A DNA stretch of 64,000 nt from Thelonectria olida (Eukaryota; Ascomycota; Sordariomycetes; Hypocreales; Nectriaceae). Of this stretch, positions 29,915-63,849 are shown piece after piece. The stretch covers positions 1-64,000 of the forward strand of contig JAGPYM010000058.1 in the NCBI GenBank assembly GCA_020736575.1, read 5' to 3'. Every line of letters begins with the position of its first letter. Within the stretch, counting starts at the first letter, position 1. The notes under the pieces are model-generated. The model was given only the letters and a program-made list of their open reading frames with translations, did not search any database and was not told the origin of the DNA. A program made the position numbers and the translations under genes.

Positions 29915-30218
29915 TATAAAAGCTAGTTTTTATATAAGCTTAAATATATAAAATAGAATAACTTAAATATACTTTACCTATTAAGGGAATAAAATTCATT
30001 ATTAAATCCGCAAAAATATAAGGATTATAACAATATATTTTTTACCCTATATACCTTATTAGTTATATTTTTATCTAGAATATTTCACTTATTTCCAAAT
30101 TAAAAAGGCGGACCCACTAGTGCATACTATTCTTACCCTAATAGGTAATATCCGCCCTAATAAGGCATGCAATCCCAAATAGGAAAGCGCGTTAAAATAT
30201 ATAACAATCCGACGCGCC

Positions 30219-30620: not shown

Positions 30621-32319
30621 TATTAAAAGCTCTTATTTAAAAGGTTATTATATTACCCTAAGTAATATTATACTATTATAACTATATCTAAAAGTTAACT
30701 TACTAATACTTTTAACCCTATATTAAATAACTTGCCTCCAGCTTATAATACTCTACCTAGAAATATAAAAGTTACTACTAAAGTCTAATAACTTTAAAAC
30801 TTAGTTAACTAACTTTATATTTAAGTGTAAAATTAAAAATAATAAGCTTTAATTATTTAATAAAATGGAGGATATAACCCTAGTAAAGTAATTAAACCAC
30901 TTTAATTAAAACCCTTTAATAGGACTTCTAAAAATATTATACCCTTTCTTATATATTTTAAAACCTATTTCTAATAGTTTCTATATAAACTTGCCTCAGC
31001 TAAAAGAAGGGTTATATATACTTATAATTATATAAAGGGAATTATAGCTATCTAGTTTAAACCTATTATAAGAGACTACTTTAAATATAATAATAATATT
31101 AGTTAAGATTAAAATATAATTAATATCTTCTCGGAATAGAATAATTTTAAAACTACACTTAAAAATATATTTAAAATAGTTAATAAGGAGCGCTAAATAG
31201 CTACTAATATCTATTAAATTAAATAATTTAAATTTACTACTAGCTACTCTATTATATTTTAATAAATTGCAGCTAAATTTAAATAGAATAATAATATACT
31301 TATAAAAATCTACTATTAGGGACTTAAAAAAGAAGTTAAAAATAAGATTTATAAGATAGAATGTCTTAAGACTTTTATAAAGTTTATTACTATAGCTATT
31401 AAAATTAATAAAAAATAGTATAAATATAAAAGAGAGAAGGCCTAAAAATGCTATATAAAACGAAATACCTCTTATAACCCCTACTATTCTAATTAGTATT
31501 AAGTAAAAAATAATAAGGGAAAAGGAAGAGCCTATTAAAGCAATACCTCCTATAATATAAATTTAAAACTAATAGAACTTGGAGCCACTTAGTAAGACTA
31601 CTTATAAGTTACTTATTAGAACTATAAAAAGAAAGGATATTTTAAAAGTAAGTATTAAAACTCTAATAAAACTAACTAGAAGTTTAAACCTATTTTAAAA
31701 GGTAAGAGATACCTAAATAATACTAACTAATAGAATAAACTATAAATAGCAATTAAAATAGCTATTAGAATACTAGTAGCAACTATTATAATTACAACTA
31801 ATCTAATAGATTATAATAAATAACACAAGTACGCCCTATAATATTAAGCAATATGCACAAATAAAAACTACTATATTTATATTAATAGCAAAATTAACAA
31901 GTACCTTAAACCCCAGGAGTATGCCCTAATATACTAAATAGCATACTATAATAATAACTATTATATTTATAGGAATAATAAGAATAATAGATACTACCCC
32001 CGCAAGCCTTAGTAAAAGGAAGGATAGAAAATGCAACTTACTGCATATAATAAAACCTGCCTAAGAGATTGCCAAATTTATAAAAATAAGAAATAGGTAA
32101 AAGTACTAATTAATACACCTAAGGATAATACACCTAATTAAAATATCCTAAAGAAAACCCTTATAATAGTATAAAGTGGTTATAATAATAGAGGGATCCC
32201 TAGTAATATTATACTATTAGTATTATAGAATCTATATAAAGAACGAGAAGAAGCCGAGCATAATAATATTAATATAACGATCCAACTGGATGCTTAAACT
32301 AACCTATGCAAATAAAACA

Positions 32320-33370
32320 TCGCTAAATACGCCATATAAAGACCAGTCCCTAAACCACTAAAGATCAGACGTATCGGTCAAGATAACACGAGAACCCTCG
32401 CAGTGATGCGTAAGAGTAAGGCAGCAAGCCCAGAAGGGAGCGATCTCGTCTACGACGAAGAAGAACGACGACCCATCAAGGCGCACAGCCACTCGACAAA
32501 GCCTCGACAGAACAGCTACGCAAGACAAACAGCTGCGGAAGCTCTTAACTTGAGCCCAGCCGACATGGAACTCGTCAACCTAATAAAACGAGAACTCGCC
32601 ACCTAAAGCGGAGACGACATCCCGCAACCCTTTTTAACACTGTCAGACTTGGACAGGGCCCGAGAACTGGGACTACCAGTCAACATATGGCATATGTTTC
32701 CCGACTCTCTCGACAACGCGCAGTCAACCAAATAATCACGAACCGAGGAATCGGTCATTTATGAAACACCTGACGAAGAATCAGAAGACACTACAGAAGA
32801 AGGAGAGACAAGACGAGTCCACCCAATTTACAAATAGATCAGACGAGGATAGAGAATCGATGCTAAAGAACTCTATGTCCACGGTGTGACATAACAAGTA
32901 ATACAATCCGGAAGATATGGACTTTATTAGTCGCACGAAGACGACGCACCCATCCTTAGCATAATACACTAGGATCACCATATAATCTTATGGGTATCTT
33001 GCTACTACCACGATTGCACACACCACCTAAACGAGAAAGTCAAGAACAACTGCTACCTACTACGATTGGGACTGTACCCAGTCGGATAATAGTATTAAGC
33101 CACCGACCTAGCGTTATAAAGGATTGTGACCTGGCTAGACCATCTAAATGTTACTATCCTGGCGGAGTATATACACAAACTTCCGAAGAAATGTATGGAT
33201 GGAATATATAATAAAGTCAGATGCTTGCACCCTGAGTGCCTTATACACGAACGAGCCAAGATAGGAGATTAGTATAGGAAGCATCTAGCATAATACACAC
33301 AACCCTATAACATACTACCTAAGAAGAATAACACAGTGGAAAACTAGGTTAAGAAAGTATACTAAAAGTT
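32320..33370 (+). pseudogene. gag: Gag C-terminal segment spared from RIP (copy 2)
   Basis: Matches the intact gag C-terminal extension (about 52930-54030), with only scattered stops. Includes an open stretch 32403-32606 ending LSPADMELVNLIKREL. Its boundaries match those of the spared segment of copy 1. The slippery heptamer at its right end is mutated at the last base (33371-33377 reads AAAAAAT). Confidence 0.8.
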
Positions 33371-35639
33371 AAAAAATAATAAGTGCTGCTTGTAATAGAG
33401 CTATAGGACTGGCTAGAGTAGGAGGAATTTGCAGAACTTTTAAAAAGAGCTTTATGCGTAATATAAAGACCTAATAATATATTACTATAATAATAAATAA
33501 TACTATAAGTATAAATTAAAGAATAATAGTTTATTATATTAGTAAATAGTAAAGTAGAAATAAATAAAGTTAATTTATAAATAGTTAATTATTTTAAATT
33601 ATTATAAAAAAATAAGAATATATCTTATAGAATATTTAATATAAAAGGAAAACTATTTAAGTATAAAAATAAATAAATTACTTATAAAATTAATTATTTT
33701 AAAGTACTTATTAAAAGAAAAAATTAGAAAGTTAATTTTAATATTATATTTTTTTAAAAATATAACTTATTTTTAAATTACTTATAGTTTTACTTATATA
33801 ACCCCCTTATTAGTTAGTATATTAGTTAAATATAAACTTTTTAAAATAATATAGCTAATAATATAAATAATAATTTAAATAATATAAAATTTTAAACTTC
33901 TATTAAAAAAAATAAAAAAGTATAATAAAGTAATAATAAAAATACTTCCTAATTTATAAAAAGAATATAACTTTTAAAAAGAATATAATATAAATATAAA
34001 AAAGGGCAAGTGTAATAAATATAATAAATAATTGCATTTTTTAAAAAAATATTTATATAAATAAATAAAAACCTTAAGTAATAGAAAGAGGCACTAATTA
34101 ATAATAGATTTAAAAATATACTAGTATAATATTAAGTTTATAAGAAACTATTTATTAAAAAACTAGAAATAAAACTACTAGAGCACTTTTAATAGAATTA
34201 TAAAATTTAGCTTAAAAATAGAATATTAACTATATTTCACCCTATTTATAACCTTAATAAAGTATAATTATATAAGCTTAAAAACTACTTTAAAAAAATA
34301 TTAAAAAAAGAATATATTAGAATTTCTAAATTAGAAATAGGCTATTTAGTTATATTTCTAAAAAGAATAAAAAACTCTAACTTCTTATAAATTATTATAA
34401 GCTTAATAATATTACTATTAAAAATAAAACACCCTTACTTTTAATTAATAAATTAAAAGACTAATTTTATAAAATAAAATACTTTACTATATTAAATTTA
34501 AAAGAAGCTTATAATTTTATTTATATTAAAAAAGAATATAAATAAAAAACTATATTTAAAATAAAATTTAAACTTTATAAATATCTTATTATACTTTTTA
34601 ATCTTACTAATATACTAGTAATATTTTAATAAATAATTAATAATATATTATAAAATACCTAAATATATTTATAATATACTATTTTAATAATATTTTTATC
34701 TTTTTTAAAATAAAAGAAAAATATATAAAATATATTTATAAGGTATTATAAGCTTTTAAAAATATTAAATTACTAATTAAACTAGAGAAAAGTTATTTTT
34801 ATACCTTAAAAGTGGAATTTTTAAAATATATTATCTCTTATAATAAAATATAAATAGACTTAAAAAAGCTTTTAGCTATTAAGGACTAAAAGAAACTAAA
34901 ATTAGTTAAAAAATATAAGCCTTTTTAGGATTTATAAATTACTATTATAAGTTTTTTAAAGATTTTAAGAAACTAGCTATACTACTTATTAAATTAATAA
35001 AAAAAAATTAAATATTTATTTAAAAACCTAATATTTAGAAAGCCTTTAATAAAATTAAAAATCTTATTTTTAGCAAACTAGTATTTAAAATGTTTAACCT
35101 TATATAATCTATTAAACTAGAAATAGACTTTTTAAACTTCGCCCTAGGAGCCCAGATCGGATAATATAATAATAATAGGAAGTTATACCTAATAGCATTC
35201 TACTCCTATAAGTTATATAAAGTAGAATTTAACTATTTTATTTATAATAAAGAGTTCCTTGCAATTATAAACACTTTTAAGGAGTTTAAATAGTACCTCC
35301 TTAAAAGCTACTACTAGGTTACAGTCTATATAGACTATAAGAACATCTCTTACTTCGCTACTACCTAATAACTTAGCAGATAATAACTTAGATATGCTAA
35401 ATACCTTATAGAATTTAATTATATTATTAAGTATAAGAAAGGATTGGAGAATAGTAGAGCTATTACTATTAGCTAATAACCTAACTTTAATATAAGTAAG
35501 GTTAAAATAAAAAAACAATTATTAACCTTCACGCCTAAAGGACACTTAAAGTAAAAATATATTATAGCCACTACTATTTAATATATCCCTAAATGTTTAA
35601 TAGAATAATAGAAGGAACGTATCTAATAATTAATTACTA

Positions 35640-37366
35640 GAGATAAACTTAAACAACTTATTATTAGACAAGCAGACTGGGTCAACTTAATATTAGAAAT
35701 AATTACCTATTAAGGAATAATCTACCTACCCTAGAAAATATAAAATAAATTTATTAAATACTATTATTAAACCATTAAGCATTATAAGAAATAGGACAAC
35801 TTATAATTCTAAAATTTCTTTAATAAGAATTTCTAATAGGAAGGAGCTAGACTAAATAACTACCTCTATTGCAATTAGTGCCTAAAAAACCAAGGCCTTA
35901 CCCTAAGGATAATAGGAAGAACCCCTGTTAATAACACCCTTGCAGTAACACACACGATAGAATAGGGAAATCCACTACTCAAACAGATCTTGGAATATAA
36001 CAAATAATTACCAAGCGATGAAAAAACAGACAAGCAATAAGTACCGGAACACCTACAAGAGGATCTCATATGGGAAATTCACAAACACCCGCTCCACGGA
36101 CACTAAGGAATTAATAAAACCCTCAAACGAGTTAAAACGACATTCTTATTTCCTAAAATCAAAAAAATAGTCAAGAAAGTCATCAAATAATGCCTCATCT
36201 GCAATAAGATAAAGGCATAATAATACAAACCTTATGGAGAATTATAGCCCATACCGGTCGCGGAACAACTATAGGATTCAATTATTATAAACTTTATTAT
36301 AAAATTACCCCTATTATTAGACCCTACTATAAGCACGGCCTATAATAGCATTCTAGTTATTATTAATAGACTTATTAAATTTTCCTATTTTATTCTATAT
36401 TAAGAAGCAACTGATGCAGAAGAATTTTCCTATATCTTTTTATAAAATATTATTAGCATATACGGACTACCTAATACAATTATCTCGAATAGAGGACCAC
36501 CCTTTTTCTCGAACTTTTAATAATGCCTTATAATAAGAATCGGACTGAACCACAAGTTAACTATAGCTTGGAGACCTTAAGTCGATAGATAGACTAAACG
36601 GATAAATTAAGTCTTAGAAACCTACCTTTATTACTATATTAACTACATCCAGAACGATTGGGTTAAGAAGTTACTAATAGCACAACTAGCATATAACATA
36701 GCAACCAACGAGAGTACCAAAATCATACCAAGCTACACAAACTTTAGATTTACCCCCAACGCCTATAGAGATTTAAGGAATGGACTACTCGCACTAGCAG
36801 CTATTCTTATATTAGATTAACTTAAGAATTTGCATGAAGAAATGTATATAGAACTTTCTTTTATTTAGAAAATGTATAAAAAATACTATGACCAGAAAAG
36901 GTTAAAGGGACCAACCTTCTCGGAGGGAGATATAGTACTCCTTGCTATAAAAAACATTAATACAAAACGACCGAACAAAAAACTCAACTACAAATACATT
37001 AGACTATATAAAACTTTAGAAAAAATCTCAAAAAACAACTACAAACTGGACTTGAAATCAAGACACCACCCAATCTTCCACATTTTATTACTCGAGCTAA
37101 CAGAAGGAACAATTATAGTCAAAATAGGGAACGAACCGGAAACAGAAATCGAGGACCCCGAAGAATATAAAGCAGAAGAAATCCTCAAGATGACAAAAGA
37201 AGACAGACAAGTCAAGTACCTCGTCAAATGGAAAGGATACAATACATTAGAAAACACATGGGAACCACCGGAACACCTCACCCATGTGCAGCGCCTGTTG
37301 AAGGATTTCCACCAGAAGCGTCAAAAGCAAACAAAGCCTCGGAAGGAACCGCACTCCAGTCAATAA
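35640..37366 (+). pseudogene. pol: Integrase and chromodomain remains of copy 2 pol
   Basis: Readable with stops as the H2C2 zinc region, the DDE core and the C-terminal chromodomain of gypsy integrase. The last 165 codons (36872-37366) are open and include the chromodomain core VKYLVKWKGYNTLENTWEPP. The stop at 37366 overlaps the end of the antisense ORF by 89 bp, the same arrangement as in the intact element. Confidence 0.85.
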
Positions 37367-37900
37367 CCCCATGGTCCTCCAGAAGCTGAATCTCGGAAAG
37401 AGCCCCTGCCTCGGCGGAACGGCGCTCCTCTTCGTCCCGACGCTCCAACTCCTCCAACTCGTCCAAATCCTCACAACCCCGACGAACCATTTCCGCCGCC
37501 TTCTCCCGCAAATGTTTCTCCTAACGACGCAACCGTTGCAAACAAGCCAAAGCCTCCAACAAGTCAGCCTCCGCCTGCTCCTTTTGCTCCTCCAGACGAT
37601 CTTTCTCGCGCGAGACACAAGCAACTGCAACCCGTCAGCAAAGAATAAACCAGACACTCATTTTCACGAACACGCCTGAGAAGTAACACCACCAAAATCA
37701 CATTAGGTATACTTTTTCTCCACGCAGAAGTCACATCGCTATTTACCCTCCGCCACCACACAAGGATGACGATTGGCCTTAAAACAAGCGGAACAGCGCG
37801 GCATTTCGAAACCGAACTTCTCGATTACTTTGGCAAGATCGCCACGTCTCTCGGCTGTAATTTTCGGACGCGAAACAGCTTTGGCGATACGACCTGACAT
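37278..37900 (-). pseudogene. Antisense Zn2Cys6-like ORF3 of gypsy copy 2
   Basis: Minus-strand counterpart of ORF3 in the intact element. It starts MSGRIAKAVSR at 37900, then shows a Cys cluster (PRCSACFKANRHPC, later RCDFCVEKKY and a further Cys) with two stops of the C-to-T type, then a coiled-coil (REKDRLEEQKEQAEADLLEA), and ends in VIDWSAVPSEALFAFDA to TGAAHG before the stop at 37278. At least one frameshift and three stops are present. The protein is clearly homologous to the intact ORF3 though far diverged, with the same start, order of blocks and last residues. It is transcribed towards pol, from inside the element near the 3' LTR. Confidence 0.75.
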
Positions 37901-38013
37901 ATTGTCAGCCAGAAAAGTAAGGAAACAAGGGTAAGTTGGTTAGGGAACCAACTTACAGGACCACGGCCTACTTATACGGTCTTAAGGGCAAGACCAACGG
38001 AGGGAAGACATCG

Positions 38014-38415
38014 TGTCACGGCCCATGCCATAACCCCGTGGGGGACCAGGCGGTCAGCCATAGCAGAACCAGTGGACCCACAAAAATTACCCTATAAACA
38101 TAAAGCATTGTATGCAAGTCGAACCAGGTCGGTTCGACTCAACTTAATAATACAAGTCAAACCAAGTCAGTTCGACTCAAGTCGACCACAATCGACTTAC
38201 AGAAGTAGCCAGTATATAAATACATTTATTTAGCATATTAGATAGATATAGCTACTTTAGCTTTTAATACAACTTGATTATACTTATCTATTTTAAGCAT
38301 ATTACTAAATATAATAACCTACTATATTGCTTAGACCTTAACGCCCTGATCTCTCTACTAATATAAACCTAAAACCCTCTAGTCTTATCTATTAGAAATT
38401 GACCAGATTGTTATA
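38014..38415 (+). repeat. 3' LTR of gypsy copy 2, little mutated
   Basis: 402 bp, TGTCACGG start, end GTTATA (mutated GTTACA). U3 holds AGTCGAACC (38117-38125) facing GGTTCGACT (38131-38139), a second pair at 38155-38176 and a GTCGA pair around 38180-38197. The TATA box TATATAAA follows at about 38213. R-U5 aligns with the other LTRs of the superfamily while U3 does not. Confidence 0.9.
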
Positions 38416-38789
38416 GCACCTCTTAAGTCTTCTACTTTTAACTAACTATTTAAATAAGAAGGAATGCACTTATATAAGCATTTTAAATACCGTTGGATAG
38501 AGGAATGATAGAGTTTTTATCTGATATATGTATCTTTTACCTAGGGCTAATAGGACCCGACTTATTATGTATAAAAGACAAGGGTGTTCCTCCACTTGTC
38601 CAACCTAATAGAATTATTAATATTTATAACGAACTTTCAACCAATTAGAACCTTCTTTACATCTTTATGACCACCTTGATTTGCTAATTCTAAATATCTA
38701 ATTAGAATTTAGATATTTTTACTCCCTATTCCTCTATTTGCTCCTAAAGCTTTTAACCTTCATTTTCTATTATAGCTCTAGCCTTTATA

Positions 38790-38989
38790 ATTTTAACAGT
38801 TTTTAATATTATAGCTTTAATAAGAAAAAGTAAATAAATAAAAAACAATTTATAAAAATAGTTAACTAGCTAAAAATCCTTTTATAATAAAAGTAATAAA
38901 TATTTAATTAAATAAGAAAGAAGCACTTTATAAAATAGTTAATTTTAAATATTTTCTATTAGTATTATTATTATTATTAAAAAAGCTAA
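38790..38989. other. AT-rich spacer
   Basis: AT-rich sequence between the right end of the family B solo LTR and repeat U; no feature recognised. Confidence 0.5.
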
Positions 38990-40295
38990 GAATCTAGGCA
39001 TATAATAGAGGTTAATACAGGCCAAACCCTAGCTTTAAATCTATTATAATAAGCTTCTTAATAGGGCTCACAGTTAGTCTTAAGGTAAAAGTCCCTACTA
39101 AGTAAACCTTACTCAAGGAACCTTATTCCGGGCCTCTAATATAAAAGCACCTCTCCATCCAACCCTAGTCCGCACAATTTAATAGTGGGAGTAATAACAC
39201 AACCCAACCCCTAACGGAAGTAACTGCAGAAGGCGAATATATGAAAGATAGAGCGATAGAGGTCCGGAGGAAAATCGACTCTTATTTGCAATTGGTTGCA
39301 ACTGCAGATAAGAAACAAGAGGGAAAATAAGTAAACCAACTAATTAGAAAGAAATATGTTAGAAATATTAAAATAAATTATAAAAACTCGGGCAAAAACT
39401 TAATAAAAAAAAACTATAAAGAAGGTATAATATCTGTCCTTGGAGGTTTCTAGCCTCCCCTTTTAAGTCCGTATGGCTCGATTTGGCAAGAAGCTCAGAC
39501 CACCTAATTCTTATCAACCTCCAATAAAAATCCTCCGTTCTTATTACTGCAAATAACCCGCCACACTACCACAATAACTCAACTAATAATATAACATATA
39601 ACAGCCAAAATGCCCAACTTCTTATCAATTAAATGCAATACAATCCAACTAGATAACGGAAGCCGCGCAGCTACTTGCTATATATCGGGATATGCAGATT
39701 TCCTCGAGCATATTAAGCCAATAAGAGACCTTAACAGGCACCTAAAAGAGTCACATCTCCTAGGCATCCCTGTACTGCCTAATACAGACACGCTATTAAG
39801 TGTTAATTAAAGGATCAACCTAGTCATTTTGGGCTGTAAGATCCTGGTCGAAAGACCCGATATGCGTTAACACTATCGCGACTTCCTCGAACAGGAAAGT
39901 TAAAGACCTTACGCGACTTCTCAAAAGGGAAAGAAAAAACCGTCTTGATAACAACGACAAGCGATTTGTTAAGACGATCCAATCAAATGCCTACAAGCCG
40001 TGGCTCCAGGAGCCGCTGTGCGCGGTGGCGACGATCCGAATGGTTGCCTGAAAGGGGAGGAAAATTCGAAGACAAAAGGTGGGTCAAATGGACGCAAGGG
40101 TTGAAAAAGTGGGGAGGGGGGGGGGGGGGGGAAAGGTTAGACGAAAAAGGTAAGTCTGGAAAAGGTTAAAGTGGGTCCAAGAGCATTCAAACCAATGGAA
40201 ATAGAGCAAGGCAACCAGGCAGCAAAATATACCAAAGAGTTTACACAATAATAAAAATCACCGATCGTAAAGAAGACGGTAATTTATATACACGC
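38990..40295 (+). repeat. Unidentified dispersed repeat U, less mutated copy
   Basis: Reverse complement of 560-1490 and the better preserved of the two. It has 16 G at 40116-40131 and a 67-codon ORF at 39610-39810 (starting MPNFLSIKCNTIQLDNG) followed after a stop by more readable sequence in the same frame, perhaps an old element-encoded protein I do not recognise. About 390 bp near 39178-39570 are absent from the other copy, either an insertion here or a deletion there. Confidence 0.7.
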
Positions 40296-49949: not shown

Positions 49950-50622
49950 TATAAAAGCCAGTCTTTATATAAGCTTAAATATATAAAACAGAATAACTCA
50001 AATATACTTTACCTATTAAGGGAATAAAATTCATTATTAAATTCGCAAAAATATAAGGATTATAACAATATATTTTTTATCCTATATACCTTATTAATTA
50101 CATTCTTATCCAGGATATTTCACTTATTTCTAAATTAGGAAGGCGGACCTACTAGTGCATACCGTCCTTACCCTAATAGGCAATATCCGCCCCAATGAGG
50201 CATGCAATCCCGAATAGGAAAGCGCGTTAGAACGTATAACAATCCGACGCGCCTCTTAAGTCTTCCACTTTCAACTAACCATTTAAATAAGAAGGAATGC
50301 ACTTATATAAGCATTCCAAATACCATTGGATAGAGGAATAACAGAGTTTTCATCTGATATACGTATCTTTTACCCAGAGCCAATAGGACCCGATTTATTA
50401 TATATAAAAGACAAGGGTTTTCCTCCCCTTATCCAACCTAATTGAATTATTAATATCTATAACGAACATTCAACCAATTAGAACCTTCTTTACATCTTTG
50501 TGACCGCCTTGATTTGCTGATTCTGAATATCCAATCAGAATTTAGATATCTTTACTCCCTATTCCTCCATCTGCTCCTAAAGCTTCCAACCTTCATTTTC
50601 CACTGCAGCTCTAGCCTTTACA
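49950..50622 (+). mobile_element. Solo LTR of family B
   Basis: 673 bp. Starts TATAAAAGC (transition from TGTAAAAGC) and ends GCCTTTACA, with target duplication CTGCC (49945-49949 and 50623-50627). It interrupts the Tc1 transposase. No coding capacity; presumably left by recombination between the LTRs of a full element. Confidence 0.92.
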
Positions 50623-50748
50623 CTGCCGAAGGGTGCGACTTCTGAACTCTGCGATTTCTCAATAACTAATAGAGATATAGGGAGAGCGATTATATCCAAA
50701 GCATATACAACTAAAGGAGAAGCCGTCACGACATTCTCAAATGTTTTG

Positions 50749-51152
50749 TGTCACGGCCCATGCATGACCCAACTCCCACCAAAGCGGTCTGGGACGGCAG
50801 AACCGCAGACAGCCCCACTTTTTCACGATCTTATGCAAGACATCGTCGAAGGACCGACGAGGACCGACCGACGGTCCCAACGATCCTACCCTGGACCGAT
50901 CCCTCAACTTCATCGGTCCCTGGAGGAACACTTAGTATATAAACACATTCCTTTAAACACATTAGATAGAACACAGCTCTTCAGCTTTCAATACAACTTG
51001 GTTACACTCATCTACTTTGAGCACATTACCAGACGTAACAACCCCCTCTGTTTACCTTTGCGCACTGCTCAGACCTTAACGTCCTGTCCTCTCTGCCAAC
51101 ATAAACCTAGAACAGTCTAGTCTACCTGTTGGAGATCGACCTGACCGTTACA
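50749..51152 (+). repeat. 5' LTR of the intact gypsy element
   Basis: 404 bp. The U3 contains inverted half-sites (see the separate entry), a TATA box at 50936-50943, and an R-U5 part shared with the other LTRs of the superfamily. Ends CCGTTACA. Confidence 0.95.
50784..50943 (+). promoter_or_regulatory. U3 half-site array and TATA box
   Basis: GGACCGA at 50851-50857 and 50861-50867, CGGTCC at 50872-50877, then GGACCGAT (50893-50900) facing ATCGGTCC (50912-50919), plus GCGGT/ACCGC at 50784-50806. The box TATATAAA is at 50936-50943. The array ends about 17 bp before the TATA box. CGG/CCG half-sites in inverted pairs are what Zn2Cys6 proteins usually bind (family knowledge). The same array is present in the 3' LTR. 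Confidence 0.6.
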
Positions 51153-51214
51153 CGTTGAAAGCTCTTGTTCAGAAGGATACCGCGTTACCCTGAGCAATAT
51201 CGAGAATTGTCAAC

Positions 51215-54055
51215 ATGGCCACCCAGCAACAGCAGCAACTCAATCTCAACCAGGGACAGCAAGGCAACCCGCCTGTTAACCCCACACCTCCTACTGACGA
51301 CGAAATGGAGGATGACGACGACGAGGAAGTCGAGGCGCTCAGACAAGACATACGCAACATGCAGATCCAACACGAAGGCGAACTCCGTGTGCAACGACTC
51401 GAAGTCGAAGCCATGCGAGCCGAAATCAACCGAATTCTCGCCATCCAGCAAGATCAACAAACACTGCAACGAAACCAAACCAACGACCTCAACAACCTCG
51501 CCACTACTGCCACCACTGGACGTGACCCCGGAGAAATCCTTAAGCCCTCTGCACCTGAGAAGTTCGACGGAAATGCCCGCAAGCTCCAAATGTTCATCAC
51601 CAGCATGAATGCCTTCTTCTCGTACTACCCGACCCAATTCCGATTCGAAGCCGCCAAAGTTCACTACGCAGCCGGACGATTCACTGGAAACGCAGCTCTG
51701 TGGTTTGAGCCCGTCATGCGGAACTACCACGACAAACCGGAAGTCGAACGAGACGAACGAACCCGACGCATCTACGGAAGCTATGCCACACTCGAACAAG
51801 AACTCAGACAGTCTTTTGGAACCATCGACGAAAAATCTAAAGCCGAAGATCGGATCAAATCTCTCAAACAAACTGGATCGGCATCCGACTATGGAACCCT
51901 GTTCACCCAACTTGCGATCAAGTTACCTTGGGACCAGGACGTCCTCATGTCACTCTTCTTCGACGGACTCAAGCAATCAGTCCAGGAAGAACTGTACAAA
52001 CACGAACGGCCAACAACCCTTGTCGAGTACATCGGACAAGCGGTCAAGATCGACGACAGACAATTCTCATGGCGCAAGAAAAAGAGCCCTAATACCGGAA
52101 ACAACAACCGATACAAGCAACCCCGGTACAACGCCAACCAAGGAAGACAGCGACAAGGACACACTTCCTACGGCACGGATTCAGGCCCGATGGAACTCGG
52201 CGCCACCAAACGCGACCACTCGCAAGTCCTCTGCTGGAACTGCGGGAAGAAGGGACATTTCGAAAGCAAGTGCCGAAACCCTAACAAGACGAACCAGAAG
52301 TTCAAACCTGTCCCAGAAGGTAAGAAACGCCTGAGTAACACTAACCGACAGGACGAACCCCAAATGGCAATCAGGACAGCCACCAGAACCCTGGCAGCAA
52401 CCGGTATGTTCACAACCAAACCAGTGAACCACGCCTTGCGACGAGAACACGCCCTGGAACACCGAGCGACGTGCACGGACAGCAAAGACTGCATCGTCTG
52501 CATAGACGGCAAAATCAACAAGTACCTTGACCCTAAGGAACACGTCTCGTTGCACTGGACGGCTTGTTACGATGACAACTGCCTCATCCACAAAGACGGC
52601 AAAGACAATGGATACTACCCCCGCAAACCCCAACAGAAGGAAAGACAGGAAGTGCAACTCACCGCACACAGCGAGACCTGTCCGGAAGGTTACCAACTCC
52701 GCGAAAACGAAGAATGGGTGAAAGTACCAACCAACACACCCCACGACGCGGAACCCAACCAAAACATTCCGAAGAAGACCCTGGCAATGACGCGAAGCGG
52801 TTACGATAACGGAGGAGTTCCCAGTGGCACCGTACTCCTAGCATCTCGAAGCCTGTACAAGGGGCTAAGGGAAGCCGAGCACGACGACAACGACACTCTA
52901 AGTCAAGACGACGCCCGAGCCAACTTGAGCAAGAAGAGTATCGCCAAATACGCCACATGGAGACCAGTCCCCGAACCACCAAAGACCAACGTCACTGGTC
53001 ACGGAAACACGAAGATTCTCGCAATGGTCAAGAAAGGCAAGACCAGCCGAAAAGACAACGAGGAAGCGACGGGATACGCGCAAGCACCCAATCAAGCAAC
53101 GAAGTCATGGCACGCGCCGCCCGACGATCAACCAACGGATCCGCAACCAAGCCGACACACCAAGAACCGAGCAACCATTAAAGACCTCGACCTAAGCCCT
53201 GCGGACCAAGACCTAGTCAACCTCGTGAAACGAGAACTCACACTCCAGAACGGAAACGACATCCCAGAACCATTCCTAATGCTATCGGATTTGGAACGAG
53301 CCCAAGAACTCGGCTTACCTGTCACCACATGGCATGTATTCCCGAACTCGCTCACCGACGATATCCCCACGCGACAAACACTAAACCACGAGCCCCTCGA
53401 GGAAGGAGAAATCCCTGAGGAAGACAACGGCTCAGTGGACGACACGAGCTCAGATGAAGCCAGTAACCCAGAAGAAGAAAAACGACTGGTTTACCAGAAG
53501 GTCACGAAAGGGCAGAACGCCAACAATGAAGACTTCTATGTGCACGGCATCACACACCGGCAAGCCCAAAAAGGACAAGGAAGCTATCAAGCTCACCCCA
53601 ACGATGCACCTATTGTGAACCCAACTCACCCGGAGCACAACACCATTTCATGGATCTCATGTTACGACCCAACATGTGAACCACACCTACGGTACAAAGT
53701 CAAGAACGACTGCTACCCTACACGATTAGGACCACATGCTATCACGCGATGGTACCAAGCCCAGCACTTACAATTTCGACGCAATGTAGCCTGGATCAAG
53801 CACATGAACGTAGCCATCTTCGAGAACTACACCCACGAATTCCCAACCAAATGCATGAACGGAACGTACGACCTACGACAATGCCGATTTGAAGAGTGTA
53901 AGGTCCACGAAAGAGAGAAAATTGAACAATGGCACGTCAAACACCCGAAACGACCAACACGACCACACCACGTACCCGCCTCACGAAACGAGACAGTGGG
54001 ACAATGGGTCAAGGACGTACAAGGAAAGTCAAAAAACGACAAGCGCCGCCTGTAG
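51215..54055 (+). CDS. gag: Gag polyprotein with long C-terminal extension
   Basis: 946 aa. The acidic/Gln-rich N-terminus is followed by a capsid-like retrotransposon gag domain (about 110-270, including AALWFEPVMRNY and LEQELRQSFGTIDEK), a basic linker and a CCHC zinc knuckle CWNCGKKGHFESKC near residue 345. The remaining 570 residues are unusual for gypsy Gag. They contain repeated His/Cys blocks (CTDSKDCIVCIDGK, SLHWTACYDDNCLIHKD, ISWISCYDPTCEPH, CRFEECKVHER) that look like small metal-binding modules. It ends at TAG 54053-54055 in a 127-bp overlap with pol. Gag would form the particle and bind RNA in the cytoplasm. Confidence 0.92.
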   Translation: MATQQQQQLNLNQGQQGNPPVNPTPPTDDEMEDDDDEEVEALRQDIRNMQIQHEGELRVQRLEVEAMRAEINRILAIQQDQQTLQRNQTNDLNNLATTATTGRDPGEILKPSAPEKFDGNARKLQMFITSMNAFFSYYPTQFRFEAAKVHYAAGRFTGNAALWFEPVMRNYHDKPEVERDERTRRIYGSYATLEQELRQSFGTIDEKSKAEDRIKSLKQTGSASDYGTLFTQLAIKLPWDQDVLMSLFFDGLKQSVQEELYKHERPTTLVEYIGQAVKIDDRQFSWRKKKSPNTGNNNRYKQPRYNANQGRQRQGHTSYGTDSGPMELGATKRDHSQVLCWNCGKKGHFESKCRNPNKTNQKFKPVPEGKKRLSNTNRQDEPQMAIRTATRTLAATGMFTTKPVNHALRREHALEHRATCTDSKDCIVCIDGKINKYLDPKEHVSLHWTACYDDNCLIHKDGKDNGYYPRKPQQKERQEVQLTAHSETCPEGYQLRENEEWVKVPTNTPHDAEPNQNIPKKTLAMTRSGYDNGGVPSGTVLLASRSLYKGLREAEHDDNDTLSQDDARANLSKKSIAKYATWRPVPEPPKTNVTGHGNTKILAMVKKGKTSRKDNEEATGYAQAPNQATKSWHAPPDDQPTDPQPSRHTKNRATIKDLDLSPADQDLVNLVKRELTLQNGNDIPEPFLMLSDLERAQELGLPVTTWHVFPNSLTDDIPTRQTLNHEPLEEGEIPEEDNGSVDDTSSDEASNPEEEKRLVYQKVTKGQNANNEDFYVHGITHRQAQKGQGSYQAHPNDAPIVNPTHPEHNTISWISCYDPTCEPHLRYKVKNDCYPTRLGPHAITRWYQAQHLQFRRNVAWIKHMNVAIFENYTHEFPTKCMNGTYDLRQCRFEECKVHEREKIEQWHVKHPKRPTRPHHVPASRNETVGQWVKDVQGKSKNDKRRL

Positions 54056-57000
54056 AAGAGCCACAGGACCGGCCAGAGCAGGAGAAATTTGCAGAACCTC
54101 CAAGAAGAGCTCTATGCGCGACAACAAGGCCCCACGAAACATCACCACGACGACGGATGATGCTGCAAGTACGAATCACGGGAAAATGGTTTACCGCGTT
54201 GGTAGACAGCGGAGCAGAGATGAATGGAGTTGATCCACGAGTAGTCAATCATCTCAAGCTACCATGGAAGGACAAGGACATACCCTACGGGATATCTGAT
54301 GTGGAAGGAAAACCATTTGAGTACGAAGATGGACAAGTTACTCGCGAGGTTGATCACCTCAAGGTGTTCATCGAAGGAAAGAATCAGGGAGTTGATCTCG
54401 ACATCATACCTCTCCAAGGATACGACCTACTCCTAGGTTACCCATGGCTTTACCGATATGACCCCCTTATCAGTTGGCGTACTGGCCAGGTGCAAGCTTT
54501 TCGAAGTAATGCAGCCAACGATACGGACAACGATTCAGACGACACGAGATCTCAAACTTCTATCGAAGAGGACGAAGAAGTACGGCGGAGCAACAACGAA
54601 GACACTCCCCAACCTACGGAGAAAACACAACCTCCAAAAGGAACACGACACAAACACAAGAAAGGGCAAGCGCAACAAACACGACGAACAATCGCATTCC
54701 TCAAGAAGACATTCGCACAGATGAACGAAGACCTCAAAGAACAGAAGGAACCATCTGACGACAGACTCAAGAACGTACCAGCACAGTACAGAGTATACGA
54801 GAAGCTGTTTGCCGAAGAACTGGAAACAGGTCTACCAGAGCATTCTCAATGGGATCACGAGATTTGGCTCAAAGACGGAACATCAACCACGTTCCACCCC
54901 ATCTACAACCTCAACGAAGCACAGCTGCACGAGCTCAAGAACTACCTCGAAGAAATGTTAAGGAAAGGATATATCAGGATTTCCAAGTCAGAAGCAGGCT
55001 ATCCAGTCATGTTCGTTCCCAAAAAGAACGGAAAGCTCCGACTTGTTGTGGATTACCGCAGGCTCAACGACATTACCGTCAAGGACAGAACACCCTTACC
55101 TTTGATCAACGAACTGAAGGACCGACTCCACGGGATGAAGTACTTCACCGCGTTAGATCTGAAGGGAGCCTACAACCTCATCCGCATCAAAGAAGGACAT
55201 GAATGGAAAACCGCCTTCAGAACGAAGTTCGGACTCTACGAATATCTTGTTATGCCTTTTGGTCTCACCAATGCACCGGCAACATTCCAACGAATGATTA
55301 ACAACGTGTTACGAGAATACCTAGACGTATTCGTGGTATGCTACCTCGACGATATCCTCATCTTCTCCAGGACGGAAGAAGAACACACGGAACACGTCCA
55401 CAAGGTACTGCAAGCTCTCGAAGACGCCAAACTGCTAGTTGAACCAGAGAAAAGTCATTTCCACGCCTCGGAAGTGGAATTTCTGGGACACATCATCTCC
55501 CACAACGAGATACGAATGGACCCAAAGAAACTTTCAGCAGTCAAGGACTGGAAGAAACCAGAGTCAGTCAAGGAAGTACAAGCCTTCCTAGGATTCGCGA
55601 ACTATTACCGCAAGTTCCTCAAGGATTTTGGGAAACTAGCCGCACCACTCACTGAGTTAACAAAGAAGGATCGACCGTTCACCTGGAAACCCGACATCCA
55701 GCAAGCCTTCGACAAAATCAAGGAACTCATCCTTAACGAACCAGTACTCAAGATGTTTGACCCTACACGACCTATCGAACTAGAAACGGACTCCTCAGAC
55801 TTCGCCCTAGGAGCCCAGATCGGACAACGCGACGATGATGGAAAGTTGCACCCAATCGCATTCTACTCTCATAAGTTACACGGAGCAGAACTCAACTACC
55901 CCATCTACGACAAAGAATTCCTCGCGATAGTCCAAGCTTTCAAAGAATTCCGACAATACCTACTAGGAAGCCACCACCAGGTCACGGTCTACACAGACCA
56001 CAAGAACATCTCTCACTTCGCTACCACTCAACAACTCAGCGGACGACAACTCAGATACGCCGAATACCTATCAGAATTTGACTACATCATCAAGCACAAG
56101 AAAGGATCGGAGAATGGCAGAGCCGACGCCATCAGCCGACGACCTGATTTCGACACAGGCAAGGTCAAAACAGAGGAACAACTGTTAACCCTTACGCCTG
56201 AAGGACACTTAAGACAGAAGTACATCGCAACCACCCTCGCCCAACGCATCCCCGAATGTTTGACAAAACAATGGACGGAACGCATCAGACAGTCAATCAC
56301 CAGAGACGAACTCAGACAACTCATCATCGGACGAGCAGACTGGGTCAACTCGGTATTAGGAATGATCACCTACCAAGGAACAATCTACCTACCCCGGAAA
56401 ATACGAAACGAATTCATCGAACACTGTCATCAAACCGTCAAACACCACAAGAAATGGGACGACCTACAATTCTGGAATTTCTTCAACGAGAATTTCTGGT
56501 GGGAAGGAGCTGGACCAAACAACTACCTCCACTGCGATCAGTGCCTAAAGAACCAAGGCCTCACCCCGAGGATGATAGGAAGAACCCCTGTCAGCAACAC
56601 CCTCGCAGCAACACACACAGTGGAACAGGGAAATCCACTACTCAAACAAATCCTGGAATACAACGAACAATTACCGAGCGACGAAAAAACAGATAAGCAA
56701 CAAGTACCGGAACACCTACGAGAGGAACTCGTAAGGGAAATCCACGAACACCCGCTCCACGGACACCAAGGAATCAACAAAACCCTCGAACGAGTCAAGA
56801 CGACATTTTCATTTCCTAGAGTCAAAGAAACAGTCAAGAAAATCATCAAACAATGCCTCATCTGCGACAAGACAAAGGCACGACGACACAAACCTTACGG
56901 AGAACTACAACCCATACCGGTCGCGGAACGACCATGGGATTCAATCACTATGGACTTCATTACGAAATTACCCCTATCATTAGACCCTGCTACGAGCACG

Positions 57001-58044
57001 GCCTACGACAGCATTCTAGTCATTGTCGACAGACTCACCAAATTTTCCTATTTTATTCCATATCAAGAAGCAACCGACGCAGAAGAATTTTCCTACATCT
57101 TTTTACGAAATATCGTCAGCACACACGGACTACCCAATACGATCATCTCGGATAGAGGACCACCCTTTTTCTCGAACTTTTGGCAATGCCTCATGGCAAG
57201 GATCGGACTGAACCACAAGTTGACCACCGCTTGGAGACCACAAGTCGACGGACAGACCGAACGAATGAATCAAGTCTTGGAAACCTACCTTCGTTGCTAC
57301 ATCAACCACATCCAAAATGATTGGGTTGAGAAACTGCCAACAGCACAACTGGCCTACAACACTGCAACCAACGAAAGCACCAAGATCACACCAAGCTACG
57401 CAAACTTTGGATTCACCCCCGACGCCTACAGAGAACCACGGAACGGACCACTTGCACCAGCAGCTATCCTTGCATCAGATCAACTCAAGAATTTGCACGA
57501 AGAAATGCGCACAGAACTTTCTTTTGTCCAGAAAATGCACAAAAAATACTACGACCAGAAAAGGTTGAAGGGACCAACCTTCTCGAAGGGAGACATGGTG
57601 CTCCTCGCTACAAAAAACATCAACACAAAACGACCAAACAAAAAACTCGATTACAAATACATCGGACCTTACAAAATTTTGGAAAAAATCTCAGAAAACA
57701 ACTACAAACTGGACTTGAAATCAAGACACCACCCAATCTTTCACATTTCCTTACTCGAGTCAACAGAAGGAACAGTCATGGTCAAAACAGGAGACGAACC
57801 AGAAACAGAGATTGAGGACCCCGAGGAATACGAAGCGGAACGAATCATCAGCATGAGGAAGGAACGACCCGACGGGACAAAACAAACAGAATACCTCGTC
57901 AAGTGGAAAGGGTACACTGAATCAGAAAATACATGGGAACCACCTGAACACCTCACCCATGTGCAGCGCCTGCTGAAGAACTTTCACCAACAACAGCAGA
58001 AGGAAAGGAAAACTCCTCGAGACCCACGGCATTCCAGTCGATAA
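53929..58044 (+). CDS. pol: Pol polyprotein: protease, RT, RNase H, integrase, chromodomain
   Basis: 1371 codons from ATG 53929, in the minus-1 frame relative to gag. The N-terminal 34 codons are probably not used if it is made by frameshifting at 54031. Domains in order: aspartic protease (ALVDSGAEMNGVDP, about residue 90); reverse transcriptase with LVMPFGLTNAPATFQ and the catalytic YLDD (about 480); RNase H (LETDSSDFALGAQ, later VYTDHKNI); integrase zinc region (HPLHGHQGINKT, CLICDK), then the DDE core (TMDFITKL, ISDRGPPF, WRPQVDGQTERMNQ); and a C-terminal chromodomain (EYLVKWKGYTESENTWEPP). The chromodomain marks it as a chromovirus, a group that targets heterochromatin. No stop or frameshift. 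The last 92 bp overlap antisense ORF3. Confidence 0.95.
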   Translation: MARQTPETTNTTTPRTRLTKRDSGTMGQGRTRKVKKRQAPPVEEPQDRPEQEKFAEPPRRALCATTRPHETSPRRRMMLQVRITGKWFTALVDSGAEMNGVDPRVVNHLKLPWKDKDIPYGISDVEGKPFEYEDGQVTREVDHLKVFIEGKNQGVDLDIIPLQGYDLLLGYPWLYRYDPLISWRTGQVQAFRSNAANDTDNDSDDTRSQTSIEEDEEVRRSNNEDTPQPTEKTQPPKGTRHKHKKGQAQQTRRTIAFLKKTFAQMNEDLKEQKEPSDDRLKNVPAQYRVYEKLFAEELETGLPEHSQWDHEIWLKDGTSTTFHPIYNLNEAQLHELKNYLEEMLRKGYIRISKSEAGYPVMFVPKKNGKLRLVVDYRRLNDITVKDRTPLPLINELKDRLHGMKYFTALDLKGAYNLIRIKEGHEWKTAFRTKFGLYEYLVMPFGLTNAPATFQRMINNVLREYLDVFVVCYLDDILIFSRTEEEHTEHVHKVLQALEDAKLLVEPEKSHFHASEVEFLGHIISHNEIRMDPKKLSAVKDWKKPESVKEVQAFLGFANYYRKFLKDFGKLAAPLTELTKKDRPFTWKPDIQQAFDKIKELILNEPVLKMFDPTRPIELETDSSDFALGAQIGQRDDDGKLHPIAFYSHKLHGAELNYPIYDKEFLAIVQAFKEFRQYLLGSHHQVTVYTDHKNISHFATTQQLSGRQLRYAEYLSEFDYIIKHKKGSENGRADAISRRPDFDTGKVKTEEQLLTLTPEGHLRQKYIATTLAQRIPECLTKQWTERIRQSITRDELRQLIIGRADWVNSVLGMITYQGTIYLPRKIRNEFIEHCHQTVKHHKKWDDLQFWNFFNENFWWEGAGPNNYLHCDQCLKNQGLTPRMIGRTPVSNTLAATHTVEQGNPLLKQILEYNEQLPSDEKTDKQQVPEHLREELVREIHEHPLHGHQGINKTLERVKTTFSFPRVKETVKKIIKQCLICDKTKARRHKPYGELQPIPVAERPWDSITMDFITKLPLSLDPATSTAYDSILVIVDRLTKFSYFIPYQEATDAEEFSYIFLRNIVSTHGLPNTIISDRGPPFFSNFWQCLMARIGLNHKLTTAWRPQVDGQTERMNQVLETYLRCYINHIQNDWVEKLPTAQLAYNTATNESTKITPSYANFGFTPDAYREPRNGPLAPAAILASDQLKNLHEEMRTELSFVQKMHKKYYDQKRLKGPTFSKGDMVLLATKNINTKRPNKKLDYKYIGPYKILEKISENNYKLDLKSRHHPIFHISLLESTEGTVMVKTGDEPETEIEDPEEYEAERIISMRKERPDGTKQTEYLVKWKGYTESENTWEPPEHLTHVQRLLKNFHQQQQKERKTPRDPRHSSR
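54031..54037 (+). promoter_or_regulatory. Minus-1 ribosomal frameshift site A AAA AAC
   Basis: Read in gag codons the sequence is (TC)A AAA AAC, exactly the X XXY YYZ slippery form. Slipping back one base gives AAA AAA CGA in the pol frame. The gag stop is only 16 bp downstream. A stimulatory structure beyond it is likely but I could not fold it. The heptamer is also intact in RIP-degraded copy 1. Confidence 0.75.
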
Positions 58045-58546
58045 GGTCAAAAGCCCCCAGAGACGCAGCCTCCGACACCGCCGCAGGCTCTTCGCGCGCC
58101 AGAACACCCGACCCCTCCAAACCCTGCAGACCACGAGAGACCAGGTCCTCCCCCTTCTTCTTCAACAAACGCTTTTGCTTTCGAATCCGAGCAAGACGAG
58201 CCATCGCTGCTTCTAGCGCCTCCTCAGCCTCCAGTTCCTCGCTCTCCAAGCGTTTTCGCTCGCGCATGTTTTTGGACACTAAGCAGTCAGCCGAGGACCA
58301 GCCACCAAGAAAAGAACTCAGAAACCCACGAAATGAAGCCACTCCCGCACCATCACAAACCACCTTGGCCTCCACGCAGTTAGAACACCGGTGCGAACGA
58401 TCCCCAATGGTGTTGCAGGAGATTTTCAGACGATGACAACGAGAACAAGGCATGGTCTCAGAACCAAAAGTGTCAATGTACAGAGCAAGAGCCTCACACT
58501 CTTTCGATTTGCGAGAAGATTTTTGCTTCAAGACGCGACCGGACAT
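57953..58546 (-). CDS. Antisense ORF3: Zn2Cys6 cluster plus coiled coil, 197 aa
   Basis: Minus strand, between pol and the 3' LTR. The ATG at 58546 (MSGRVLKQKSSRK) is chosen because the homologous ORF in copy 2 begins with the same MSGR; the frame is open a little further upstream without an ATG. Residues about 32-62 have six Cys spaced C-x2-C-x6-C-x9-C-x2-C-x6-C, within the GAL4-type consensus, with basic residues after the second Cys (CHRLKISC). A coiled coil of about 45 residues follows (MRERKRLESEELEAEEALEA onward), then an acidic/hydrophobic tail (FDLIDWNAVGLEEFSF) that could activate transcription. The end overlaps pol by 92 bp. The start lies 113 bp from the 3' LTR, so an antisense promoter in that LTR could drive it. 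Presumed nuclear DNA-binding protein; target unproven. Confidence 0.75.
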   Translation of the reverse strand: MSGRVLKQKSSRKSKECEALALYIDTFGSETMPCSRCHRLKISCNTIGDRSHRCSNCVEAKVVCDGAGVASFRGFLSSFLGGWSSADCLVSKNMRERKRLESEELEAEEALEAAMARLARIRKQKRLLKKKGEDLVSRGLQGLEGSGVLAREEPAAVSEAASLGAFDLIDWNAVGLEEFSFPSAVVGESSSAGAAHG

Positions 58547-58658: not shown

Positions 58659-59062
58659 TGTCACGGCCCATGCATGACCCAACTCCCACCAAAGCGGTCT
58701 GGGACGGCAGAACCGCAGACAGCCCCACTTTTTCACGATCTTATGCAAGACATCGTCGAAGGACCGACGAGGACCGACCGACGGTCCCAACGATCCTACC
58801 CTGGACCGATCCCTCAACTTCATCGGTCCCTGGAGGAACACTTAGTATATAAACACATTCCTTTAAACACATTAGATAGAACACAGCTCTTCAGCTTTCA
58901 ATACAACTTGGTTACACTCATCTACTTTGAGCACATTACCAGACGTAACAACCCCCTCTGTTTACCTTTGCGCACTGCTCAGACCTTAACGTCCTGTCCT
59001 CTCTGCCAACATAAACCTAGAACAGTCTAGTCTACCTGTTGGAGATCGACCTGACCGTTACA
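58659..59062 (+). repeat. 3' LTR of the intact gypsy element
   Basis: 404 bp, identical to 50749-51152 as read. Followed by the target duplication TTTTG. Confidence 0.95.
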
Positions 59063-59684
59063 TTTTGGGGCGGAATTGCAGGCTTGAGACGCACGTCTCT
59101 AGTGCCTTTGATTGGGGACCCCGAGGCACCTTGGGGGGGAGTAATAGGCCGCCGAATTCAAGCCTGCCTTAAAGAAAACCTCCCAACTATAGCTGAACCG
59201 GGCTATACATTCCAATAAGATAATGCACCCGTGCATACAGCTGGAATAGTTCAAATCTGGCTCTAAGACTGGGCTGAAGAGAATGGGGTCGCCATCGCCA
59301 ATTTCCCCCCTTATAGCCCTAACCTCAACCCCATCGAAAAAATCTGGCCCCTAATAAAAACCCGGATCATTCAGGCATATCCCGAATTGAATGAGATGCC
59401 TCGAACGGATAGGACTAAACAGCTGCTTGTGCAGGCTGCTATTGAAGCCTGGGAGGGCATTGAAGATAGGGTCCTAGCCAGCCTATGGAAATCAATGCCC
59501 AAGAGGTTGAAGGCCGTGAGAGATGCAAATGGCTGGTACACTAAATACTAATCTATACCAGAAGAAAGTCCTGCCATTTGGCGTTATAATGCTATTTTCG
59601 ATGAATCAATTGACCTTTATTTGGCTGAGAAATATGACTTCAAAGTTCATGTGTTGGGGCGTGGGTGTGGTCATGTATCGAGGA

Positions 59685-59711
59685 CTGCTTGGAACTTTTG
59701 GGGACCCACTG
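59685..59711 (-). repeat. Right terminal inverted repeat of the Tc1-type element
   Basis: Ends GACCCACTG followed by TA; the inverse of 49337-49362 with about three differences. Confidence 0.88.
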
Positions 59712-59766
59712 TACGTCCGCGGTACACATAGGGAATCAGTACGGCGGGCGGGGCATCTTCAATTAA

Positions 59767-60979: not shown

Positions 60980-61652
60980 TGTAAAAGCTAGTCTTTATAT
61001 AAGCTTAAATATATAAAATAGAATAACTCAAATATACTTTACCTATTAAGGGAATAAAATTCATTATTAAATCCGCAAAAATATAAGGATTATAATAATA
61101 TATTTTTTACCCTATATACCTTATTAATTATATTTTTATCCAGGATATTTCACTTATTTCCAAATTAGGAAGGCGGACCCACCAGTGCATACCGTTCTTA
61201 CCCTAATAGGCAATACCCGCCCCAATAAGGCATGCAATCCCAAATAGGAAAGCGCGTTGGAACGTATAACAATCCGACGCGCCTCTCAAGTCTTCCACTT
61301 TCAACCAACTATTTAAATAAGAAGGAATGCACTTATATAAGCATTCCAAATACCGTTGGATAGAGGAATGACAGAGTTTTCATCTGATATATGTATCTTT
61401 TACCTAGGGCCAATGGGACCCGACTTATTATATATAAAAGACAAGGGTTTTCCTCCCCTTGTCCAACCTGATCTAATCATCAATATCTACAACGAACCTT
61501 CAACCAATCAGAACCTTCTCTACATCTTTGTGACCACCTTGACTTGCTGATTCTGAATATCCAATCAGAATTTAGATATCTTTACTCCCTATTCCTCCAT
61601 CTGCTCCCAAAGCTTCCAACCTTCATTTTCCACTGCAGCTCTAGCCTTTACA
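60980..61652 (+). mobile_element. Solo LTR of family B
   Basis: 673 bp, ends TGTAAAAGC and GCCTTTACA, target duplication TATTG (60975-60979 and 61653-61657). The left 250 bp are AT-rich, the right part less so. Best preserved terminal motifs of the three copies. Confidence 0.93.
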
Positions 61653-63449: not shown

Positions 63450-63849
63450 CAAAAGGAGATAATGAATTTCAGTGTTGTGATGTAGAAGAATGGCGCGAGG
63501 GTTTCCAGATAGGTGCAGCCTGGGCTACGACCCTCAGTTTAAATAACTCGTTCACCCTGGATCACTTCGTGAACCAGAGTGAACCACGGACAAGTTCACT
63601 CAAGATCACTCAGTGAACCCCCATGAACCCTTCGAGGATCATTAACATATAACACATTCACTTAGAAAATTAGATAGACACAGTTTCCTCAGCTTTTAAT
63701 ACAACTTGGTTACACTCATCTACTTTAAGCACATCACCAGACGTAATACCGCGCCTTTCACTGCTCAGACCTTAACGCCCTAATCTCTCTGCCAATATAA
63801 ACCTAGAACCCTCTAGTCTTATCCGTTGGGAGTTGACCAGATCGTTACA
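63450..63849 (+). mobile_element. Solo LTR of a third gypsy subfamily
   Basis: The right 250 bp match the R-U5 of the intact gypsy LTR and end CCAGATCGTTACA at 63849. The left end is uncertain (no target duplication found). U3 has its own array of half-sites: GTTCACC 63550, GTGAACC 63569, AGTGAACC 63578, GTTCACT 63594 and AGTGAACC 63612, with CATATAACA following near 63645. The LTR scrap at 22992-23121 belongs to this subfamily by sequence. Confidence 0.75.

Follow-up and report, generated by a model that had tools for sequence, protein, structure and literature searches.

Several retrotransposons with long terminal repeats (LTRs) carry an additional gene on the strand opposite to gag and pol. 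The closest described system, going by the portions of the literature cited here, is brtn, the antisense gene of the Boty-like retrotransposons of Botrytis and Sclerotinia (PMC7264820, PMC8365987, PMC5987419, PMC4227169). Antisense open reading frames (ORFs) occupy the same position in the plant Gypsy elements Grande, RIRE2 and Retand (TRP28 in the last), and the roles of such genes are stated to be unknown in the relevant sections of both sources (PMC11963269, PMC7264820). In animals, HBZ of human T-cell leukaemia virus type 1 (HTLV-1) is described in the cited portion of PMC1459196 as an antisense, spliced transcription regulator that starts in the 3' LTR. Here we describe a stretch of 64,000 nucleotides (nt) from the fungus Thelonectria olida (assembly GCA_020736575.1, contig JAGPYM010000058.1, positions 1 to 64,000; hereafter the window). 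It holds an intact Ty3/gypsy chromovirus whose antisense gene is predicted to be spliced and to encode a Zn2Cys6-like protein, most likely a dimeric DNA-binding regulator with candidate sites in the unique 3' (U3) part of its own LTR. The initial annotation of this DNA was right that antisense genes are known from plant elements, and it overlooked the fungal gypsy precedent, brtn of Boty, noted in the cited part of PMC7264820. An antisense gene at this position is thus already known; the protein type, the intron and the subfamily-specific dyads appear to be new. A literature search, which covered few subscription papers, found no Zn2Cys6 antisense gene in a retrotransposon; the term 'zinc' is absent from PMC11963269 and the term 'intron' from PMC7264820.

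Boty and the window element are alike in that both are ascomycete gypsy elements with a gag-pol that includes a chromodomain (PMC4227169, in the part cited) and with an extra antisense gene between pol and the 3' LTR. We know brtn here by its position, from those cited parts, and BRTN may be a relative of the window protein; no Botrytis, Sclerotinia or Monilinia name occurred among our homologue matches, many of which are nameless records drawn from about 8,000 candidates per search. The plant genes share position, orientation and a suspected role as nuclear or DNA-binding regulators, and in Retand the gene is conserved family-wide. However, as far as the cited sections describe them, they belong to plant lineages, Retand is not a chromovirus and TRP28 takes the place of a zinc cluster. 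HBZ differs in being a basic leucine zipper (bZIP) protein of an animal retrovirus, and a start in the LTR was shown for HBZ (in the cited part of its report) whereas it is presumed here; the Pfam list for the window protein contained no bZIP family, and the protein has a six-cysteine cluster instead.

That the window holds an intact gypsy element, as first annotated, is borne out in full. The two LTRs (TGTCAC...GTTACA) are identical at 404 nt each, the target-site duplication TTTTG is present on both flanks, and the Ty3 capsid of gag is accompanied by reverse transcriptase (RT), RNase H, integrase and chromodomain in pol, in the order that, between LTRs, defines a Ty3/gypsy chromovirus. The features of the element are as follows.

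50744..50748, left copy of the target-site duplication, TTTTG
50749..51152, plus strand, 5' LTR, 404 nt, same as the 3' LTR
50851..50919, U3 dyad array of the 5' LTR, with half-sites GGACCG/CGGTCC at 50851, 50861, 50872, 50893 and 50914
50936..50942, plus strand, TATATAA box of the 5' LTR, 16 nt past the end of the dyad array
51215..54055, plus strand, gag (Retrotrans_gag / Ty3_capsid)
53929..58044, plus strand, pol (RT, RNase H, integrase, SH3_Tf2-1, chromodomain), overlapping gag
57953..58546, minus strand, antisense gene from start to stop, 197 amino acids reading through the intron and 180 when spliced
57953..58044, stretch where the coding sequences of the antisense gene and of pol (chromodomain end) overlap tail to tail
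57953..58278, minus strand, exon 2: coiled coil, basic segment and acidic C-terminus with DLIDW
58279..58329, minus strand, predicted intron of 51 nt, GTGGGT...GGCTGAC...TTAG, phase 1, without in-frame stop
58330..58546, minus strand, exon 1: N-terminus and six-cysteine cluster
58355..58447, minus strand, codons of the six-cysteine cluster, residues 34-64, derived from the ORF translation
58659..59062, plus strand, 3' LTR
58761..58829, U3 dyad array of the 3' LTR, with the start codon of the antisense gene on one side and the TATA box on the other
59063..59067, right copy of the target-site duplication, TTTTG

The gene had been annotated as a single minus-strand ORF of 197 codons between pol and the 3' LTR. 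Strand and position hold (57953-58546, 197 amino acids plus stop), but the single frame does not, as it reads through the 51-nt intron at 58279-58329. In the sister subfamily B (we refer to the window element's own subfamily as A), exons 1 and 2 lie in different frames, so that read-through is impossible, and the protein is restored by removing a 53-nt intron (GTGTGT, CTAAC, GCAG), which measures 52 nt in a related copy on contig C101. A, B and C101 share its position and phase as well as GT...AG ends and a CTGAC or CTAAC, and the A intron (GTGGGT, CTGAC, TTAG) is open by chance. We therefore predict a two-exon, spliced gene. A simple long ORF was rejected, as B and a third subfamily, D, both shift frame at the intron position. 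The annotated Fusarium homologues P0004, P0006, P0007 and P0008 have gene models that lack the intron sequence. Protein P0003 (source 'lgn'; 119 residues) equals spliced A throughout, except for its first methionine, where A has a GTG codon; its gene caller was likely blind to introns, on our reading of 'lgn', and hence the intron would be missing from the DNA or complementary DNA (cDNA) behind it. A minus-strand intron would survive retrotransposition, since the genomic RNA, being the plus strand, undergoes no splicing at this site. We also considered, and dropped, a gene on the plus strand of this gap, where open runs reach 112 and 144 codons; the ORF list of the window holds no plus-strand ORF of at least 120 amino acids between 58045 and 58601.

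The cysteines of the window protein follow CX2CX6CX9CX2CX6C, the GAL4-type spacing noted at the outset and within the Zn2Cys6 consensus, CX2CX6CX5-12CX2CX6-8C; the B protein has X8 in the second gap of its cluster. The coiled coil and acidic tail likewise stand, as a predicted coil and a net charge of -7 over the C-terminal 60 residues. Regulators of the GAL4, PUT3, PPR1 and HAP1 type share the six-cysteine spacing, a coiled-coil dimerisation element, dyad sites and an acidic end. They are, however, host genes with a large middle domain, whereas window-type proteins lack that domain, have about 180-210 residues and are encoded antisense in a retrotransposon. Judged from its sequence, the window protein is Zn2Cys6-like and outside Pfam PF00172 as modelled, so that its annotation as Zn2Cys6 regulator-like is upheld for the spacing and not for the Pfam match.

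At E<=0.01, profile searches (A2 and A4) returned 65 and 71 homologues, together 124 different identifiers. The named ones come from Fusarium, Trichoderma, Cordyceps, Akanthomyces, Metarhizium, Hapsidospora, Stachybotrys, Colletotrichum, Verticillium, Apiospora, Neoarthrinium, Pseudomassariella and Xylariaceae, all of which we take to be Sordariomycetes. The start of the cluster is recognisable in 97 of 125 proteins, the window's included; the six-cysteine pattern is present in 81 of these 97 (missing in 16), with canonical spacing in 74 of the 81. The distance from the cluster to the conserved RLxRIR motif of the coil is 33, 40 or 47 residues, that is, in heptad steps, in 49 of 78 measured proteins and 34, 41 or 48 in 11; the other 18 deviate, at least seven of them through intron read-through. 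UniProt names several homologues 'Zn(2)-C6 fungal-type domain' proteins, and most of the named ones are called hypothetical, uncharacterized or unnamed. Four proteins tried against NCBIfam gave no relevant family, and none of 41 pattern matches in viral contigs was a relative. AlphaFold2 models were made for the homologues P0007 and P0012 (pLDDT 77.8 and 86.0), and in both the cluster region is followed by a single long helix. Over 33-34 residues the cluster of P0012 can be overlaid on PPR1 and GAL4 at 1.2-1.4 A, although vimentin and KAP1 helices head the same list. A sequence search of solved structures (profiles A3 and A5) gave mostly coiled coils, with Cep3/CBF3B, a zinc-cluster protein, only at E 1.2-7.5.

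Seven full-length, unbroken copies with at least 99% identity, the window's included, occur in the same genome, and an eighth (C22) ends at a contig edge. Together with the homologues from the profile searches, these copies make a chance ORF an unlikely account. Subfamily B is represented by seven identical copies of the antisense gene and by the related C101. Every one of the 16 copies of type A or B that are listed with an open RT keeps the gene open (15 full and the contig-cut C22), although these are mostly near-identical and do not amount to 16 independent observations; by its orientation, its place after pol and before the 3' LTR, and its retention in these copies, the gene conforms to the aORF-3R class. 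The exons of C101 and B differ at seven sites, six silent and one a replacement (synonymous divergence, dS, 0.043; nonsynonymous divergence, dN, 0.0021; dN/dS about 0.05; Fisher P 0.0008 for the contrast), an estimate from one pair with few differences. All three indels between the two genes lie in the 52/53-nt intron, along with one substitution. A and B proteins are 42% identical, and outside the pol overlap their genes give dS 1.59 and dN 0.69, near saturation. Within the overlap dS and dN are both 0.35, as expected because the opposite strand, pol, is constrained. A protein-coding gene under purifying selection is supported by these patterns. The initial annotation had argued for selection from conservation between subfamilies; the low dN/dS within B and the unbroken genes sustain the conclusion, and the C-terminal similarity (GESSSAGAAHG) had to be dropped as evidence, since it sits opposite the chromodomain end of pol and is not independent. 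The diverged D copy in the window does retain the start, cysteine cluster, coil region and C-terminal end, as first described, but its reading frame is broken:

37278..37900, minus strand, antisense gene of subfamily D, interrupted by stop codons and with its two halves in different frames
38117..38177, U3 of the same D copy, with AGTCGAACC-N5-GGTTCGACT at 38117-38139 and, 38 nt further along, a second dyad that is mutated

More telling than the antisense ORF, and beyond what was first annotated, are the repeated dyads private to the U3 of each subfamily. Five GGACCG/CGGTCC half-sites lie in the A U3. Four of them (LTR positions 103, 124, 145 and 166) alternate in direction at intervals of exactly 21 nt and form two GGACCG-N15-CGGTCC dyads, 42 nt apart. 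In B the dyad is GGATCAC-N10-GTGATCC, present as two exact copies and one with a single mismatch; in D it is AGTCGAACC-N5-GGTTCGACT, and each of two undamaged LTRs holds a pair of these at a distance of 38 nt. A fourth type, in an LTR of the same family (E, 63530-63849), combines a B-like repeat and unique 5' region (R-U5) with GTTCAC-N13-GTGAAC twice and GTGAACC repeats; no antisense gene was seen with it. Repeated dyads with the same arms and spacing thus occur in four of four U3 types, and at most 1 of 500 shuffles matched each (a 320-nt stretch was used for E); they were found in none of the three R-U5 parts tested, nor in the LTR of a control family, C. In A, B and D alike, 16-35 nt separate the end of the array from the TATATAA that follows. 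Genome-wide, exact dyads number 48 for A, 40 for B and 10 for D, and each reversed pattern 0; they are paired in 42 of 48 (42 nt apart), 36 of 40 (32 nt) and 4 of 10 (38 nt), respectively. A CGGTCC pair at 49256/49298, also 42 nt apart, was set aside, as its surroundings are unlike an LTR.

These differences stand out against the rest of the elements. The pol genes of A and B are 92-98% identical in 17 of 18 200-nt bins (54149-57748) and 86% in the remaining one, and dS between them is 0.16 over pol codons 75-1270, 1.29 in gag and 1.59 in the antisense gene. The LTRs of B and D are near-identical from the TATA box through R-U5, and their U3s are unrelated. Thus, regulator and U3 have diverged between elements whose replication genes are almost alike. 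C101, compared from gag to the 3' LTR, resembles B in its antisense gene, in its 3' LTR and, for the most part, in gag; of its 200-nt pol pieces, some are closest to A and others to B. In control family C, whose RT is open and 48% identical, the LTR follows directly on the pol stop, and no antisense gene is present (L024, one copy fully read). L024 (G000:C57:361500-370900), with 199-nt LTRs, represents a second intact gypsy family in this genome.

We consider it probable that through the antisense gene the element encodes its own LTR regulator, be it an activator or a repressor. The gene would be transcribed from the side of the 3' LTR and its RNA spliced; the protein would enter the nucleus, dimerise through its coil and bind the dyads of its own U3. 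Through the array in the 5' LTR it would set transcription of the genomic RNA, and through the same array in the 3' LTR, upstream of its own start, it would exert feedback. The private dyad specificity fits either sign of regulation. By our own estimate activation is modestly favoured, because the array lies before the TATA box like an upstream activating sequence and the C-terminus with DLIDW is acidic and aromatic. Repression, as the other form of self-regulation, is a possibility that we rate as unlikely when taken by itself: the protein would shut the LTR of its own subfamily, in the manner of a phage repressor and as a control of copy number, and elements with other dyads would escape. 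It would account equally for the anatomy, for a regulator and U3 that have diverged between A and B while pol has not, and for the wholly different U3s of B and D upstream of near-identical sequence. However, the array is upstream of TATA rather than on it, and the C-terminus seems more like an activation domain.

Several results weigh against self-regulation through the U3 dyads. The window protein scores 20.1 bits against PF00172, under the curated cut-off of 21, and among the homologues 6 of 29 and 7 of 58 match it at E<0.01; the searches that found the family each scored about 8,000 candidates. Fold matches are weak, with all Foldseek hits at E>=0.28, although the top six of nine rows for the P0007 model are Pho7, Put3 and Leu3 and six of seven rows for P0012 are Pho7 and Leu3, the seventh being a CBF3 chain. 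Between A and B, dN/dS is only 0.43, at synonymous sites near saturation. The intron is read through yet open in P0002, P0005, P0024, P0092, P0094, P0095 and P0104, so its retention is not always fatal. Among the dyads, six of the ten exact D sites are single, as are six A sites, one of which (C28) lies in a damaged A-type LTR and the others (C30:12721, C81:570778, C89 and two on C111) were counted by pattern match, as were pairs on C4, C51, C81:464516 and C87 and one unpaired B site on C1. Conservation of the half-sites speaks for the reading: in the much diverged LTR C140 they match A at 30 of 30 bases, against 22 of 39 in the spacer and 61 of 97 in other aligned U3. Of those 30 bases, however, 24 were fixed by the search pattern, leaving six free, and picking by dyad favours conserved half-sites. 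Only the fifth half-site counts as independent, because the relatives were picked by the dyad pattern. In the closer LTR C127 the contrast is small (30 of 30, 34 of 39 and 98 of 118).

Of the readings other than self-regulation, an accessory protein that binds nucleic acid for nuclear import, integration or cDNA, and not for transcription, fares best, and we regard it as rather improbable. The coiled coil and basic segment would suit such a role, and the antisense protein of plant Grande is nuclear, with a role given as unknown in the cited parts of PMC11963269 and PMC7264820. However, it leaves unexplained why dyads in U3 differ by subfamily and are absent from R-U5. It has also been reported, in the portion of PMC11130915 cited here, that Skippy-like elements of Fusarium oxysporum form small RNAs and that a copia element of Fusarium fujikuroi has small RNAs from both strands; if skippy belongs with the present elements, which is an assumption, the antisense RNA itself might act, either by feeding small-RNA silencing or by interfering with the sense transcript. 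We hold this to be very improbable, as exon changes are far more often silent than replacing, all indels are intronic, and the six cysteines and heptad steps are kept across the family. Least probable of all is a captured host Zn2Cys6 gene, as passenger or in the service of the host, for although fungi are rich in Zn2Cys6 proteins, this gene occurs in 16 open copies and in damaged copies adjoining LTR matches (L011, L014-L017) and belongs to a distinct protein family.

Some further observations concern the element and its surroundings. Directly after the 5' LTR lies a putative primer-binding site, TTGAAAGCT (51155-51163), complementary to AGCTTTCAA (50983-50991), which begins 47 nt past the TATA start in A and 46 nt in B and D. 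This pairing suggests self-priming rather than a tRNA primer, for which we take Tf1 to be the appropriate comparison. A direct repeat with 95% identity lies on both sides of the element (49952-50251 and 60982-61281, 11.0 kb apart), from which the chromovirus seems to sit within another repeated element. Sequence to the right of it (59070-59720) recurs at seven further places in the genome, with 87-98% identity over about 640-650 nt, and there are shorter matches elsewhere. Two parts of the window, 1-8000 and 29000-40000, contain very AT-rich blocks (GC down to 13%) that hold damaged relatives of the element and look as they would after repeat-induced point mutation.

In summary, we propose, tentatively and as somewhat more doubtful than self-regulation itself, that fungal chromoviruses carry an exchangeable regulator-operator module, in which an antisense, spliced zinc-cluster gene and a U3 array are replaced together. 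Phage repressor-operator immunity groups offer a comparison. There, too, sisters with near-identical replication genes differ in regulator and candidate operators, although the present system is a retrotransposon and repression in it is hypothetical. With a protein type, a gene structure and candidate binding sites together, the question of the role of such genes becomes open to direct test. A family of more than 100 database records would gain an identity, and annotation could stop treating them as regulators of the host. Specificity may, moreover, have diverged here between retrotransposons that compete within one genome. If the proposal is true, sister retrotransposons with nearly the same pol in one genome would each be regulated with a specificity of their own, as a eukaryotic parallel to the immunity groups of phages.

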